A stretch of DNA of 64,000 bases. It comes from Pontibacterium sinense. Its GTDB lineage: Bacteria; Pseudomonadota; Gammaproteobacteria; Pseudomonadales; Balneatricaceae. Below are positions 10,992 through 16,986 of this stretch, piece by piece. Position 1 is the first letter of the stretch; the number at the start of each line of letters is the position of its first letter. The translations under genes were made by a program, and so were the position numbers. Where the stretch lies: NCBI RefSeq assembly GCF_015209595.1, contig NZ_JADEYS010000003.1, forward strand, positions 124,001-188,000, read 5' to 3'. The notes under the pieces are model-generated. The model searched no databases. It worked only from the letters and a program-made list of their open reading frames with translations, and was not told the origin of the DNA.

Positions 10992-11016
10992 AACGTGAAT
11001 TCACAGTGGCTCAAAT

Positions 11017-11045
11017 AAAAAACGGGCTCCCATTAGAGCCCGCTT
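11017..11045 (-). terminator. Terminator after the TDT transporter gene
   Basis: Read on the minus strand, GCGGGCTC and GAGCCCGT arms enclose TAATGG and are followed by TTTTTTATTTG. It isolates bioA from the gene upstream. Confidence 0.88.
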
Positions 11046-11069
11046 TCAAATCGGCTTCAAGCCATCAGA

Positions 11070-12053
11070 TCAATCGGGTTTGAATACGCCGCCGCTGCGC
11101 ACGGCTTTAAACGTTTTGAACAGCAGGAATGCGATGACCAGACTAGCGACAGTCAGTGATATCCAAGACAAGATCTCAAGGAAAGCGTAACCGGTTTTGT
11201 GGTACATGATCTGGATCGCGATTGAGGATGCTGCCAGTGGAAATGAATAGGCCCACCAGGACAGAAAGAACGGAATTCGACGGAAGCGCTCTAATTGAGT
11301 AAAGAGCAGCAACAGGAGGAACATTGCTGAATAGAACAAAATGCGGGCAAACGCATCAATTTCACCACCGTTGAGTTTTGTGTAGGAGATAAATCCAACG
11401 GCAGGCGGTGCAATCAGGATAAAAAGCGTAGGTAGTAGCTTTTCTGGTAGTGGATCATGAAACAGAACCCTGTTAAAAATCAGGGTCTTTAAAATAATCC
11501 AGTAAACGATCCCGATGCTGAAGAAGAACCAGCTGATCTCGTAAAAGCCGTGCTCGGTACCTGTGATAGGGACAATAATGTTGCCGACCACAGGAATGAA
11601 CCACGCGGGTGTACTATGTTGTATCTGGAACTTAGGATGATGTATCCACTGGGTAATGACATGTAACGTGAACCCCAGATGCATGATGCACCCCACCCCC
11701 CATAGATACAGGGAGAGATCTGTCGATACTTGTAGCGTTGCCACGCTGAGCAGCAGTACTGAGATAGAAAATGCAGGAAAAAAGCTAATTTTTATCGGAT
11801 GATGAAATTCTTTCAGGCTCATTTCAGGAAAGCGCAGTATCTTGATCACGTACCCAAGCGACACGGCTAAAAAGAGACAGGCAACCAGAACCAGAAGGAC
11901 CTGACTTACGATTACCGGAAGCTGCAGCACTTCAGCAGCTTTCTGCCAAGCCAGAGTCAGGCCGGTTGTTCCCATAATCATCGCAAAGAAAGCGATAGGG
12001 AAATGTTGAAGCTTTGATGATGTAGAAGAGGATGAGGTGGCAGAATTAGCCAT
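11070..12053 (-). CDS. TDT/SLAC1-type membrane transporter
   Basis: Integral membrane protein of 327 residues with about ten hydrophobic segments. It belongs to the tellurite-resistance/dicarboxylate transporter (TehA/Mae1/SLAC1) superfamily. Family features are the first helix FPIAFFAMIMGTTGLTLAW and the internal PVVGNIIVP and FFSIGIVYW segments. Members move anions, organic acids or sulfite, and the substrate cannot be read here. The N-terminus is serine/threonine-rich (residues 2-12). A 7-bp inverted repeat lies just upstream of its start (12071-12086). It is divergent from the hvfA-like gene, so a shared regulatory region is possible. Confidence 0.8.
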   Translation of the reverse strand: MANSATSSSSTSSKLQHFPIAFFAMIMGTTGLTLAWQKAAEVLQLPVIVSQVLLVLVACLFLAVSLGYVIKILRFPEMSLKEFHHPIKISFFPAFSISVLLLSVATLQVSTDLSLYLWGVGCIMHLGFTLHVITQWIHHPKFQIQHSTPAWFIPVVGNIIVPITGTEHGFYEISWFFFSIGIVYWIILKTLIFNRVLFHDPLPEKLLPTLFILIAPPAVGFISYTKLNGGEIDAFARILFYSAMFLLLLLFTQLERFRRIPFFLSWWAYSFPLAASSIAIQIMYHKTGYAFLEILSWISLTVASLVIAFLLFKTFKAVRSGGVFKPD

Positions 12054-12070
12054 TAGCGCCTCCGAGATAA

Positions 12071-12086
12071 ATTAGATAGATCTAAT
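12071..12086. repeat. Inverted repeat upstream of TDT gene, possible operator
   Basis: ATTAGAT and ATCTAAT are perfect inverted arms with an AG spacer, 18 bases upstream of the transporter start on the minus strand. This is a plausible repressor site; no partner regulator is encoded nearby. Confidence 0.4.
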
Positions 12087-12153
12087 ATAGTAAATCAGTC
12101 AACGTCACAGGCCAAGGGAAAACAGAATTTTAAGTCACTTGCTCAGTAAAACT

Positions 12154-12171
12154 GATCAGATGACAGGAAAT
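12154..12171 (+). promoter_or_regulatory. Shared 18-nt element, copy 1 (upstream of hvfA)
   Basis: GATCAGATGACAGGAAAT recurs with one difference at 14480-14497, upstream of the DoxX gene of the same locus. It lies 131 bases before the precursor start. This is probably a regulator site or promoter element common to both genes. Confidence 0.55.
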
Positions 12172-12302
12172 CGGGCAAGCAGGCGGATGATTCAGCGGCT
12201 TTTCCAAATTGCCGGACACAGAGTGTGATCGGTAAATTGAATAAAAAACGAAACCAAAAAATTGTTAATACTTCTACTACGAGAAGAATGAGGGTGAAAA
12301 CG

Positions 12303-12767
12303 ATGGCTACTACTAAATCTACTCTGAAACCTGTTGTTGCTGCTGTAAGTCTGGCGTTTGTTGCTGGTATGGCGACTGTTTCTACTGCAAATGCTGCAGC
12401 TAACCCATTTGCTGCGTCTGATCTGTCCTCCGGTTACGGCCAGGTTCAGCTGGCAGACAACCACAAAAATGCTGAAGGCAAATGTGGCGAAGGTAAATGT
12501 GGCGGCGACAAAAAAGCATCTTCTGAAGGCAAGTGCGGCGAAGGTAAGTGCGGCGGCGACAAAAAAGCATCTTCCGAAGGCAAATGTGGTGAAGGTAAGT
12601 GCGGCGGCGACAAAAAAGCTGATTCCGAAGGCAAATGCGGTGAAGGTAAGTGCGGCGGCGACAAAAAAGCTGATTCCGAAGGCAAATGCGGTGAAGGCAA
12701 ATGTGGCGGCGAGAAAAAGCCATCTGAAGGTAAATGTGGTGAAGGTAAATGTGGCGGTAACAGCTAA
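12303..12767 (+). CDS. hvfA: HvfA/bufferin-like precursor with twelve EGKCG motifs
   Basis: Precursor peptide of a copper-binding RiPP. Residues 1-31 form a signal peptide (hydrophobic VVAAVSLAFVAGMATV, ending ANA), so the product is exported. After a short linker (residues 32-57), residues 58-152 consist of six units of about 17 residues, each reading EGKCGEGKCGG plus a DKKASS-like spacer. That gives twelve cysteines, all within EGKCG, at 61, 66, 78, 83 and so on. In Haemophilus HvfA, EGKCG cysteines are converted to copper-binding oxazolone/thioamide groups. ATG 12303 is preferred over ATG 12288 because it starts a proper signal peptide. Followed by its modifying enzymes. Confidence 0.88.
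   Translation: MATTKSTLKPVVAAVSLAFVAGMATVSTANAAANPFAASDLSSGYGQVQLADNHKNAEGKCGEGKCGGDKKASSEGKCGEGKCGGDKKASSEGKCGEGKCGGDKKADSEGKCGEGKCGGDKKADSEGKCGEGKCGGEKKPSEGKCGEGKCGGNS
12474..12758 (+). repeat. In-gene tandem repeat, about 51 bp x 6
   Basis: Four 51-bp units (from 12474, 12525, 12576 and 12627), then a 48-bp unit (12678) and a truncated last unit (12726). Units three and four differ at a single base, which indicates recent duplication or slippage. Unit length is always a multiple of three. Confidence 0.92.
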
Positions 12768-12791
12768 GCAGCCCGTTTACAGTTAAACAAT

Positions 12792-12819
12792 CAGGGCTTC
12801 GTTTTACGAGGCCCTGTTT
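12792..12819 (+). terminator. Attenuating hairpin between hvfA and hvfB
   Basis: CAGGGCTTCG pairs with CGAGGCCCTG (one wobble) around TTTTA, followed by only a short TTTA. This weak terminator would let most transcripts stop after the abundant precursor and some read into the enzyme genes. Confidence 0.6.
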
Positions 12820-12843
12820 ACAACAGGCTTGAGGAAAGGACAG

Positions 12844-13695
12844 ATGAGAGAACAAGGTTATCCGGTCAAAGGTGCAGGTGTCGGTTATCGCCGCTGCATG
12901 ACAGATAGTTTGAAGAATGTTGATCCTGAACAGATCGATTTTCTTGAAGTCGCGCCGGAAAACTGGATTGGGCTGGGCGGTCGTTACGGAAAGAGCTTCC
13001 GCGAAGCCGCAGAGCGTTTTCCGGTGATGACACACGGTTTGTCATTATCTCTGGGTGGGCCTTCCCCACTGGATCTGGATTTTCTGAATCGCCTGAAAGG
13101 CTTCATGAAAGAACACAATATTCGTGGTTACTCGGAGCATTTGAGTTATTGCACCGATGACGGACATTTGTATGACCTGATGCCGATTCCTTTTACTGAG
13201 GAAGCCGTGCGTTATGTGGCGCAACGTATCCGCCAGACACAGGATGTGCTGGAACAGAAAATCGCTGTTGAAAATGTCTCTTTCTATGCGACGGTTGGTG
13301 CAGAGATGAGTGAAAAGGAGTTTTTGCTGGCGGTGCTCGATGAAGCTGATTGCGACCTGTTACTGGATGTGAACAACATCTACGTGAACAGCGTAAACCA
13401 CAAATATGATGCACAAGAGTTTCTCGCTGCGATGCCTGCTGAACGCATTATGTATCTACATGTAGCGGGGCATTACAACGAAGCTGATGATCTGATTGTT
13501 GATACCCACGGCGCGGATGTGGTCGATCCAGTCTGGACGTTGTTGCAACAGGCATATGATCAGTTTGGTGACGTTCCCACGTTGCTTGAGCGCGACTTTA
13601 ATATCCCACCGATGGCAGAGCTGCTGGTGGAAGTGGAACAGATTCGTAGTTATCAACAGATCTGGAGGCAGCGCAATGACCGCACCGTTGCATAA
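12844..13695 (+). CDS. hvfB: HvfB-like DUF692 multinuclear non-heme iron oxygenase
   Basis: MNIO enzyme expected to modify the cysteines of the adjacent precursor. The TIM-barrel metal ligands typical of DUF692 are visible in order: [64 protein letters not shown] and LLERDFNIP. It has 283 residues from ATG 12844, which is preceded by GAGGAAAGGA; the frame extends to a TTG at 12829 but that lacks a ribosome site. Its end overlaps hvfC by 20 bases, implying translational coupling. In related systems this enzyme uses iron and oxygen to form oxazolone/thioamide or thiooxazole rings. Which one is made here is not decidable. Confidence 0.9.
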
Positions 13696-14455
13696 TCAGG
13701 ACGATTTTCAGGCGCTGCAATACGGTTTTGCAGCCCATATCCGTAACCCGGATACTCACGATGCACCTGATGGCATTGAAGAGCGTCGGATGCAGATTTA
13801 CCGAGAGTTGTTTTACAACAATGTAGAAGGTTTTCTGGCAGGAAACTTCCCGGTAATGAAGGCAATTTCCAGTGATGAATACTGGCATCGGACAGTACGT
13901 AATTTCTTCGACCTGTATCGTTGCCATACCCCGTACTTTCTGGAGATCGGCCAAGAATTTATTGAATACGTCAATGGCGAACGCGTGCCGGATGATGAGG
14001 ATCAGCCCTTTATGAAAGAGCTGCTCCATTACGAATGGGTTGAGCTGGCGCTTGATAGTTCGGAGGTGGATCTGCCTGTTGAAGGGGTAGATCCGAATGG
14101 GGATCTATTGGCAGGCCATCCTGTGCAATCTCCTCTGGCATGGTCTCTTGCATATCAGTACCCCGTGCACTGCATATGTGAAGAATACGTGCCGCAGGAA
14201 CCCGGTGCCCAGCCAACCTACCTGATTGCGTATCGCAATCGAGAGGACGCGGTGCAGTTTATAGAGACCAATCCGGTCACCGCCCGTTTGCTGTATCTGT
14301 TGTCTGAGTCTGAAGAGATGAGCGGGCATGAAGCGTTGCAGCAAATTGCGGTTGAACTGCAACATCCATCACCGGAACAAGTGGTGGCTGGAGGCTTGCA
14401 GACCCTGGAACAACTCAGGGCGAGTGGAGTCATCCTCGGTACTTTAGCGCAATAG
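13676..14455 (+). CDS. hvfC: HvfC-like DUF2063 partner protein
   Basis: 259-residue DUF2063-family protein, the usual companion of DUF692 enzymes, thought to present the precursor peptide to the iron enzyme. The N-terminal domain signature is [20 protein letters not shown] followed by NFPVMKAI, and [16 protein letters not shown] lies in the middle. The C-terminal half (from about residue 170) is the less conserved winged-helix-like part. ATG 13676 sits inside the end of hvfB and has GGAGG upstream. Transcription with hvfB is near certain. The pair HvfBC acts as one complex in characterised systems. Confidence 0.87.
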
Positions 14456-14479
14456 AACGTGTGTTTTTAAAGGGTGACC

Positions 14480-14503
14480 GATCACATGACAGGAAATGTG
14501 ATC
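14480..14503 (+). promoter_or_regulatory. Shared element copy 2 inside a 24-bp inverted repeat (upstream of DoxX gene)
   Basis: The first 18 bases, GATCACATGACAGGAAAT, match the hvfA-upstream copy at 17 of 18 positions. Here the element is also a perfect hyphenated palindrome, GATCACAT / ATGTGATC with an 8-base spacer, ending 40 bases before the DoxX start. It looks like a dimeric regulator site. Confidence 0.55.
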
Positions 14504-14543
14504 AAACTCGTGAATAAGAGTGAAGGATTGAAGGAGCTACTAC

Positions 14544-15164
14544 ATGGCTAACGCACTGATAAATACTTATAACAAAGTGCATGATGTGCTGGACTACACC
14601 CGTCAGATGGACGGACTGGCACCCCTGTTACTGCGTTTATATCTGGCTCCTGTTCTGATGCAGGCGGGTTACAACAAGCTATCGCATTTCGATGATACCG
14701 TTGCCTGGTTTGGTAATGCGGAATGGGGTCTCGGTTTGCCGATGCCTGAAGTGATGGCTGCGCTGGCCGCAGGTACAGAGCTCTTTGGTGGTCTGGCATT
14801 GATTATTGGTTTTGCGACCCGCTGGATTTCCATCCCGTTGATGATCACCATGCTGGTGGCAGCATTCTCTGTTCACTGGGAAAACGGTTGGTTGGCAATT
14901 GCTGATGCAAGCAGCTGGTTGGCAAATGATCGTGTTATGGAATCCGTAGATCGGCTGAACGCGGCAAAAGAGATCCTGCGCGAAAATGGCAACTACAACT
15001 GGCTGACAGGTCGTGGGTCGGTGGTGATATTGAATAACGGTATTGAGTTTGCTATCACCTATTTCATCATGCTGCTGAGTTTGTTCTTTGTGGGTGGTGG
15101 TCGTTACTTCAGCGTTGATTACTGGCTGGCGAAGAAATTCCGTCCACAGGCTGTAGAGTCTTAA
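14544..15164 (+). CDS. DoxX-family membrane protein (HvfD-like)
   Basis: 206-residue membrane protein with four predicted transmembrane helices, including LLLRLYLAPVLMQAGYNKLSH, VMAALAAGTELFGGLALIIGF, ISIPLMITMLVAAFSVHW and IEFAITYFIMLLSLFFV. DoxX-like proteins are frequent fourth members of HvfABC and bufferin loci. They are suggested to supply electrons or assist at the membrane, but no role is proven. A ribosome site (AAGGAG) lies about eight bases before ATG 14544. The 88-base gap after hvfC contains the shared palindromic element, so it may have its own promoter. Confidence 0.82.
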   Translation: MANALINTYNKVHDVLDYTRQMDGLAPLLLRLYLAPVLMQAGYNKLSHFDDTVAWFGNAEWGLGLPMPEVMAALAAGTELFGGLALIIGFATRWISIPLMITMLVAAFSVHWENGWLAIADASSWLANDRVMESVDRLNAAKEILRENGNYNWLTGRGSVVILNNGIEFAITYFIMLLSLFFVGGGRYFSVDYWLAKKFRPQAVES

Positions 15165-15200
15165 CCTCCGCGACTGATGTGACACGCAAAAACTAAAGAC

Positions 15201-15229
15201 AAAAAGGGGGCCATTCGGCGCCCTTTTTT
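15201..15229 (+). terminator. Terminator closing the copper-RiPP locus
   Basis: AAAAAGGG-G-GCC pairs with GGC-G-CCCTTTTT (one internal mismatch) around ATTC, with a T-run. The A-run on the other arm makes it usable for the convergent gene as well. Confidence 0.85.
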
Positions 15230-15259
15230 AGTATCTGGGGGTAGCGCTGTGAGCACGTT

Positions 15260-15628
15260 TTACAGGCTTTTTTCCAGATCTTGCAGTTGTTGGCGCAGAA
15301 TTTCGGATTGTGCATCATCCTTTTTGAGCGCATCCACCATATCTTCAATCACCGGGGCACAACTGTGGCTTGCGCCCATTAACTCTTGCCAGAGCTTTTC
15401 GAGATCAGAGCCCGGGTCATCACGCAGATTCTTTTCATCCTGCAAGCATTGCAGGTAGTTGTTCAGGTAGGTACCGCTGACGGCCCCTTTTTCTAACAGC
15501 TGTTGTGACAAATCACCAATCCATCGCTCGGTTTCTGAAAAATCAGGATGGGTGTCTGCCCACGCGATTGGCGAGAGTAGGGCTGTTAACAACGAAGTAC
15601 TGAGCAAAGATGTGATCGGATGTCTCAC
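15260..15628 (-). CDS. Predicted periplasmic protein of unknown function
   Basis: 122 residues with a clear Sec signal peptide (SLLSTSLLTALLSPIAWA, cleavage near residue 24). The mature part is about 98 residues, mainly helical and acidic, with two cysteines (YLQCLQDEK and SHSCAPV) that could form a disulfide. I recognise no family. It lies downstream of the GGDEF gene on the same strand, about 100 bases apart, and convergent to the DoxX gene. A functional link to the copper locus is possible only by proximity. Confidence 0.6.
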   Translation of the reverse strand: MRHPITSLLSTSLLTALLSPIAWADTHPDFSETERWIGDLSQQLLEKGAVSGTYLNNYLQCLQDEKNLRDDPGSDLEKLWQELMGASHSCAPVIEDMVDALKKDDAQSEILRQQLQDLEKSL

Positions 15629-15726
15629 AGTGAGTGACCTGTGTGGTGGCTATAAGGTGAAGGCTATACCGAACGGGCTGAACCTGCCATGAATTATCTG
15701 ATAGTCCAGCCCAAAGAGAGAATCTC

Positions 15727-16986
15727 TTACGCGTGTGCGTAACCACCTTTGTTGTGAGCTTTAGCTTTGTAGAGGGCCTTATCTGCGTGTTCTATCAGGG
15801 ACTCTAAAGTGTCTTCCGGGGTAAGCTGGCTGATGCCGATTGAGCATCCGATACGCTCGTTATGTTGTTGCAGACGGTTGCGGATTCTTCGCGCTGTTTG
15901 GGTTGCACCCGCAAGTTGGCAATGCGGTAAAAATACCAGAAATTCATCCCCTCCCCAGCGGCCGGCAATGTCATCGTCGCGCACAATGTCATTGAGTGTC
16001 TGACCCACTTTACGCAGCACCGTATCACCAAACGGGTGACCGAATGTATCGTTGAGTTCCTTAAAGTGATCCAGATCGATCAGTAGCATGACCGCAGGAA
16101 TTTCATGGCGGTGGCAGTATCTAATTCTTTTTTTCATCAGTTCACTCAGGCCATGCCGGTTATAGACACTGGTGAGTGAGTCGAACAACGCCATTTCTGT
16201 CAGCTGGGCTTCCCGTTTCTGTAGTTGAGTGACCAGTTTATGTCGGGAGAGTACGCGGTCTATGCGTACCAGCAGTTCTTCTTCCGAGAAAGGTTTGCTG
16301 ACAAAGTCATCAGCGCCTAAATGAAATGCCAGTAGACGACGGGATGGATCATTAAAGCCGGTTAAGGCGATGACAGGCAGATCACTTATTGTGGTTCGAG
16401 TGTGGTGACGAATGTAGTGCAGCAGTTCCAGCCCCGTGTGTTTCTCGTCCAACAGAAGATCAGTAATGATCAGATCAAACTCTTTATATTCGAGCGCATC
16501 GATCGCGCCGGAATAGGTCATGTGCCATTCCACGGACATGCCTCGTTGTTGCAGCATGGTTGTGACAAGCTGGCCGTTGGTTGGACTGTCCTCTACCAGC
16601 AGTACGTTATCGTCAAATTGATAGCTGGTTCGGCGTAAAAGACGAATGATGCCATCAATGAGTTGATCGGGCTGGTGGCGATCAAGGACATCCGTAATGC
16701 CATGCCCCACCGCCTCTTTTACGAAATTAAAATCGTAGTCATAAGAGACGAGCATGACGGGTGTAAATTGATATTTGGGAAGAGAGCGGATGTGTTTCAG
16801 CAGGGGCAGATAGTCATCCGGTTGAATATAACGTGCCAGGGTAATCAGGTCGTATTGACTCGAATTCAGTGCTTTGAGTGTTTCGTATCCGTTGGAGCAG
16901 CTTGTTAACTCACAACCAATCGGTTGAAGTTGGCTTTTCAGCAGTTGGTGGAACGCGCGGTTGGGATCTACAGCAAGGATACGCAT
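15727..16986 (-). CDS. REC-REC-GGDEF diguanylate cyclase response regulator
   Basis: 419-residue cytoplasmic signalling protein. Residues 1-120 are a degenerate receiver: the position equivalent to the phosphorylated aspartate is alanine 51 (DLITLARYI). Residues 125-250 are a normal receiver with acidic VEDS, phospho-acceptor D176 (DLIITDLLLD), the threonine in IALTGF and the lysine in SKPF. A short linker leads to a GGDEF domain (about 265-419) with an intact GGDEF active site at 345-349 and an RDDD product-inhibition site at 336-339. It should make cyclic di-GMP under control of an unlinked histidine kinase. This is the tandem-receiver layout of PleD-like regulators. Confidence 0.9.
   Translation of the reverse strand: MRILAVDPNRAFHQLLKSQLQPIGCELTSCSNGYETLKALNSSQYDLITLARYIQPDDYLPLLKHIRSLPKYQFTPVMLVSYDYDFNFVKEAVGHGITDVLDRHQPDQLIDGIIRLLRRTSYQFDDNVLLVEDSPTNGQLVTTMLQQRGMSVEWHMTYSGAIDALEYKEFDLIITDLLLDEKHTGLELLHYIRHHTRTTISDLPVIALTGFNDPSRRLLAFHLGADDFVSKPFSEEELLVRIDRVLSRHKLVTQLQKREAQLTEMALFDSLTSVYNRHGLSELMKKRIRYCHRHEIPAVMLLIDLDHFKELNDTFGHPFGDTVLRKVGQTLNDIVRDDDIAGRWGGDEFLVFLPHCQLAGATQTARRIRNRLQQHNERIGCSIGISQLTPEDTLESLIEHADKALYKAKAHNKGGYAHA

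Follow-up and report, generated by a model that had tools for sequence, protein, structure and literature searches.

A putative hvfABCX operon for a copper-binding peptide, with a hairpin in the hvfA-hvfB gap, in Pontibacterium sinense

We have analyzed a stretch of 64,000 nucleotides (nt) of the marine gammaproteobacterium Pontibacterium sinense, which we call the window and whose coordinates we use throughout, and we describe in it a four-gene operon, hvfABCX, together with a hairpin that lies between its first two genes. We are confident that the operon belongs to the hvfABCX family (captophorin, or Buf_EGKCG), the class of periplasmic copper-binding peptides. A first-pass annotation of this DNA had placed four genes at 12303-15164, and the open reading frames (ORFs) confirm all of them at those positions. 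The four protein types that it named are also present: an EGKCG-motif precursor, a multinuclear iron enzyme (MNIO, DUF692), an overlapping DUF2063 protein, and a DoxX protein. Gene content and motif layout are observed directly, and the features are the following.

12303..12767, plus strand: hvfA, precursor of a ribosomally synthesized and post-translationally modified peptide (RiPP), 154 amino acids (motif count, NF050137)
12474..12757, plus strand: tandem repeat array, 51 nt, 5.6 copies, encoding the EGKCG pairs
12792..12816, plus strand: intercistronic hairpin, 11-pair stem and 3-nt loop, then TTTACAAC; 27 nt before the hvfB start
12844..13695, plus strand: hvfB, MNIO (DUF692) peptide maturase, 283 amino acids (PF05114, NF003818, PDB 3bww)
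13676..14455, plus strand: hvfC, DUF2063 / NGO1945_C partner protein, 259 amino acids (NF050145, PF09836, PDB 3dee)
14544..15164, plus strand: hvfX, DoxX-family membrane protein, 206 amino acids (PF07681, NF050144)
15201..15229, plus strand: terminator-like inverted repeat downstream of hvfX, with a T run (seen by eye, unscored)

The reading frames of hvfB and hvfC overlap by 20 nt. The inverted repeat that follows hvfX is absent from the list produced by our terminator scan, which uses a rule of 5 Ts in 8 bases.

The assignment of the locus to the copper-RiPP family with HvfABC and DoxX, already proposed in the first pass, is upheld by curated models for the four proteins and by a gene order that is kept in relatives. 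HvfA matches the KCGExKCG domain model NF050137 in 5 stretches (140 bits, cut-off 19.5), and no Pfam family reaches its cut-off on this protein. HvfB matches PF05114 in Pfam (1.5e-104) and NF003818 (442.9 bits, cut-off 360), HvfC matches NF050145 (314.8 bits, cut-off 142) and PF09836 (7.9e-26), and HvfX matches PF07681 (2.8e-24) and NF050144 (243.9 bits, cut-off 80); we count DoxX/HvfX as a frequent but non-obligatory mark of the HvfA family, or Buf_EGKCG captophorins. One score counts against the assignment: HvfA stays below the model for the strict HvfA equivalog, NF050188 (79.5 bits, cut-off 95). Because that cut-off is missed, we file the locus at the level of the HvfA family, and not as the strict equivalog. 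HvfB also falls below the models for the bufferin maturase BufB (NF050167, 269.4 bits, cut-off 310) and for the methanobactin enzyme MbnB (TIGR04159, 47.6 bits, cut-off 325).

HvfB aligns with PDB 3bww (7e-77) and HvfC with PDB 3dee (4e-9), which are the MNIO and PME1 structures named in PMC13097082. The first pass had credited HvfB with all expected ligand motifs. Our check covered two of them, LDVNN and DTHG, and both align with 3bww. Residues N175, D242, and H244 of HvfB have been found essential (PMC13419390), and judging by sequence the LDVNN and DTH motifs probably hold their equivalents, with either asparagine in LDVNN a candidate for that of N175.

The same genome carries two further MNIO loci, L001:715-3025 (contig C49) and L003:1174-3404 (contig C12), and their MNIOs do pass the BufB model NF050167 (cut-off 310), with 385.4 and 337.7 bits. 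The precursor at L001 is of the BufA2 type (NF050166, 122.8 bits, cut-off 60), with 12 cysteines in two similar halves. At L003 the precursor belongs to DUF2282 (Buf1), and an ECF-like sigma factor follows downstream. Counting the window locus, this one genome holds three captophorin types.

In the precursor HvfA, the EGKCG motif occurs exactly 12 times, the cysteines also number 12, in six pairs, and the motif count bears out the claim that every cysteine lies inside a motif. The strict spacing that had been attributed to the pairs holds within them, where the distance from cysteine to cysteine is 5 throughout; between pairs it is 12 in only 4 of the 5 gaps, and the last is 11 (the full series is 5,12,5,12,5,12,5,12,5,11,5). 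The array had also been called unusually regular, and this part has to be given up. Of the 12 Oceanospirillaceae-type loci closest to the window, all but L018 have the same paired layout, and this layout has already been published for the family (PMC12452194), so that regularity as a novelty is ruled out.

The array is not a product of chance, since it is built as a 51-nt tandem repeat and since its motif codons differ synonymously only. This second point is observed directly: across the 12 motifs, all 60 codons vary at synonymous positions only (glutamate is always GAA, glycine is GGC or GGT, lysine AAA or AAG, and cysteine TGT or TGC), which argues for selection on the peptide. The spacers, on the other hand, are often uniform within a species and different between species (GDKKASS/GDKKADS here, GEKKTA in locus L009, GDKASKS in L014). 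For the window and L009, spacer identity is 0.90 and 0.92 within the arrays, and 0.71 between them. No higher likeness within arrays is seen for the spacers of L021/L030, L063/L075, and L015/L017, and at the motif core the DNA has no consistent within-array excess (window and L010: 0.889 and 0.880 within, 0.894 between). At the level of sequence, these patterns give a hint of repeat turnover, or concerted evolution, of the array.

At its N-terminus, HvfA has a basic start, a hydrophobic core, and an Ala-rich end, in a region that aligns across 15 sequences; by eye, it looks like a signal peptide.

Conservation in relatives, also a direct observation, was evaluated in 80 comparison loci chosen by HvfB similarity. 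Although hvfC stands beside hvfB in all 80, this count weighs less in favor of the assignment than it may seem, as loci chosen in this way are in part bound to show the pairing, and as the rows share ancestry. BLAST detects hvfX in the fetched flank of 56 loci and hvfA in that of 61. The closest named HvfB proteins are those of Pontibacterium granulatum and an uncultured Marinobacterium (89% each), with gene order common on both sides, and L091, from the same genus, has an HvfB at 97%. An ORF with at least 2 motifs (in the relaxed form [ED][GASN]KC[GAS]) is found in 72 of the 80 loci; the median number of motifs among these 72 is 7, and 7 of them have at least 12. Twelve motifs is high, not unusual. 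L018 has 4 motifs and the other 11 of the nearest 12 Oceanospirillaceae-type loci have 8-14; the 29 loci from the family of the window have 5-14. Within the family, 38 of 116 genomes have a match to the precursor domain model, and five of these 38 belong to the genus of the window; in a draw made across the class, the matches number 52 of 274. All three counts include the window's own genome.

The region between hvfA and hvfB folds with a z-score of -2.88, and 1 of 200 shuffles folds as well. With the stem required to have 7 or more pairs, at least 4 of them GC, we find a hairpin at this position in all 13 Oceanospirillaceae-type loci (the window is one of them) and in 28 of 29 loci of the window's family (the miss is L105); these two sets overlap, and their rows share ancestry. 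All 38 intergenic regions of at least 60 nt in both sets have the hairpin, versus 3.39 expected from dinucleotide shuffles. Of the other loci, it is found in 2 of the 58 chosen by HvfB similarity (L059, L082), and in 3 of the 21 class loci (L121, L129, and L139, with a gap above 450 nt in L121 and L139). This absence is explained in part by the gap between hvfA and hvfB, which outside the family is usually too short, with a median of 21 nt in the 58 loci and 27 nt in the 21.

There are 29 distinct hairpin sequences among the 41 rows, with several pair types at every position. Because the hairpins were picked for their pairing, the tally of pair types measures divergence, and it does not amount to an independent test of covariation. 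In our own-genome comparison, the bufA2-bufB2 gap of L001 holds an 18-pair hairpin (L001:1202-1245), parallel to the one between hvfA and hvfB, and the 15-nt gap between the precursor and MNIO genes of L003 has no hairpin.

Searched against Rfam, 11000-15800 yields no hit with E of 1 or below. Neither "hairpin" nor "terminator" is used in the main texts of PMC13097082, PMC12452194, PMC13419390, PMC12538549, and PMC5413113 (supplements and subscription papers were outside the scope). Literature searches for such an element, of which we considered the best 25 of 7,750 and the best 15 of 1,841 papers, gave no entry that deals with it, and DUF692 does not occur in any of those 15. The hvfA-hvfB hairpin thus looks like an added regulatory detail for which the open literature that we checked holds no description.

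What could the hairpin do? It probably raises the hvfA message over that of hvfBC, either by leaky termination or by protection of the hvfA part of the mRNA, a reading to which we give about even odds. The stem ends 20-40 nt upstream of hvfB in 32 of the 41 hairpins. A promoter would hardly fit into such a distance, so that transcription starting in the gap is less likely than read-through or processing. There may also be a promoter inside hvfA, and the read-through may be controlled by metal or iron status. A hairpin between precursor and enzyme genes has a precedent in nisA-nisB of the nisin system.

A competitor to leaky termination is that the hairpin is only an element of mRNA stability or processing, and we would put this at slightly below an even chance. 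The window hairpin has 3 Ts in the next 8 bases and is missing from the list of our terminator scan (same rule of 5 Ts in 8), and 12 of the 41 hairpins have no 6-nt window with 4 Ts close to the end of the stem. These observations weigh against a terminator, and so do the tails ACACTCAACA (L089) and ATAGCAGAGG (L110), which are not U-rich. On the other side, 29 of the 41 do have at least 4 Ts in 6 near the stem end, counted in windows that may reach back over the final four stem bases. By either route, leaky termination or protection, a family hairpin whose stems have diverged and remain paired could set a high ratio of precursor to enzyme and give a bulk buffer from few copies of the enzyme, long arrays and hairpin being two means to capacity; we regard this proposal as evenly balanced between right and wrong.

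As for how hvfA itself is transcribed, a consensus promoter scan of 11000-15800 reports one site, inside hvfX, versus 6.1 expected, and an alignment of 16 upstream regions has no block common to all.

For the ring chemistry, export, and copper binding of the product, we reason from characterized relatives. HvfC would present the precursor HvfA to HvfB, the multinuclear iron enzyme, which would oxidize the EGKCG cysteines to 5-thiooxazoles with the loss of 4 H each. The modified HvfA would leave via Sec to the periplasm, where its many thiolates would bind Cu(I) as a buffer. By analogy, then, the product is likely to be a periplasmic poly-5-thiooxazole copper chelator. In the relatives, enzymes of the HvfBC type remove 4 H per cysteine (PMC13097082, PMC12668002, PMC13419390, PMC12538549), the ring has been assigned as 5-thiooxazole for enzymes of the HvfB type (PMC13097082, PMC13419390), and peptides with EGKCG motifs carry 5-thiooxazoles, with copper binding reported (PMC13097082, PMC12668002, PMC13419390).

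Three points speak against this picture. Gonophorin with copper bound 1 or 2 Cu, and also gave a complex mixture and precipitation (PMC12668002). The authors of the Microbulbifer study doubted a role in copper protection, finding no clear one (PMC12538549). And AlphaFold2 run on the 15-sequence alignment gave no fold for HvfA, at a predicted local distance difference test (pLDDT) of 39, so that the beta-helix model published for another Buf_EGKCG member (PMC12452194) is not reproduced here.

The Microbulbifer result would also fit a modified peptide whose main role is that of a metallophore, acquiring or delivering copper like methanobactin, rather than that of a detoxifying buffer, and HvfB does belong to the same enzyme superfamily as MbnB, at a score far below the cut-off of that model. 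We consider this unlikely, as the signal-peptide-like start, together with a long array of many sites, suggests that the protein is kept in the periplasm, and as there is no TonB receptor or peptide exporter among the six neighbor genes scanned with Pfam, to which this search was confined. That the array serves another soft metal, or redox or thiol stress, with copper binding incidental, is quite improbable: a DoxX homolog protects against oxidative or sulfur stress (PMC12452194), but the characterized EGKCG products are reported to bind Cu (PMC13097082, PMC12668002, PMC13419390), and neither the ORF list nor the Pfam results for the locus add another metal-specific gene to the operon.

An operon for a periplasmic copper chelator, as we read it, can be set beside several known systems. 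The hvfABCX operon of Haemophilus influenzae (oxazolin) has the same four gene types, and all four window proteins match hvf family models. Its HvfA has a signal peptide, which the N-terminus of the window protein resembles, and paired AEGKCGEGKCG motifs like those in the window (PMC13419390), with 6 motifs versus our 12. The two also differ in the NF050188 equivalog cut-off, which the window protein does not reach, and in the distance from the LDVNN asparagine to the DTH aspartate of HvfB, which is 42-43 residues in the window (13363-13509) versus 67 (N175-D242) in Haemophilus, about 24 fewer (PMC13419390). The window has the hvfA-hvfB hairpin, and the Haemophilus intergenic region was outside the scope of our hairpin counts. 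The Buf_EGKCG/oxazolin group (Antoine et al. 2025, PMC12452194) combines a core RiPP, MNIO, DUF2063, and DoxX in various ways, and nothing essential separates it from the window, whose 12 cysteines are within the published range (the longest member has 58; PMC12452194). Fontiphorin (fonABC) and the captophorins share with the window the EGKCG-type repeats, the MNIO with its DUF2063 partner, and the expected 5-thiooxazoles, of which fontiphorin has seven, whereas the window has twelve candidate sites (PMC13097082). Microbulbifer mmrABC, for which the authors name three mmr genes, also has two-cysteine cassettes, with 5-8 cysteines per precursor, and in the precursor tested all six lose 4 H each (PMC12538549).

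No additional operon genes are seen around hvfABCX, and the nearest genes on both sides lie without exception on the minus strand. They are those for a TehA-like transporter, a BioA-like protein (a label read from the translation only), one small protein, GGDEF, TrmO, and TauE. An inverted repeat, TTAG...CTAA, is found at 12068-12089, close to where the divergent TehA-like gene begins. By eye, a similar upstream repeat is present in L009, L010, L016, and L018, all four of which carry a TehA-like gene; L011 has the gene and no obvious copy of the repeat, which may belong to the TehA-like gene. The small protein on the minus strand at 15260-15628 has a signal-like start followed by two cysteines; neither Pfam nor NCBIfam has a match to it at E 0.001, and it is found 3′ of hvfX in 5 of the 80 loci.

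The operon itself is ordinary and mostly explained already, and it is the hairpin that looks like an overlooked regulatory detail. With this operon, a large and recently characterized family of copper-binding RiPPs gains another long member with paired repeats, and the operon's close relatives with 8-14 motifs are a natural series in which to test copper capacity against repeat number. As for the hairpin, it provides a simple explanation, open to test, of how the substrate could be kept in excess of the enzyme.
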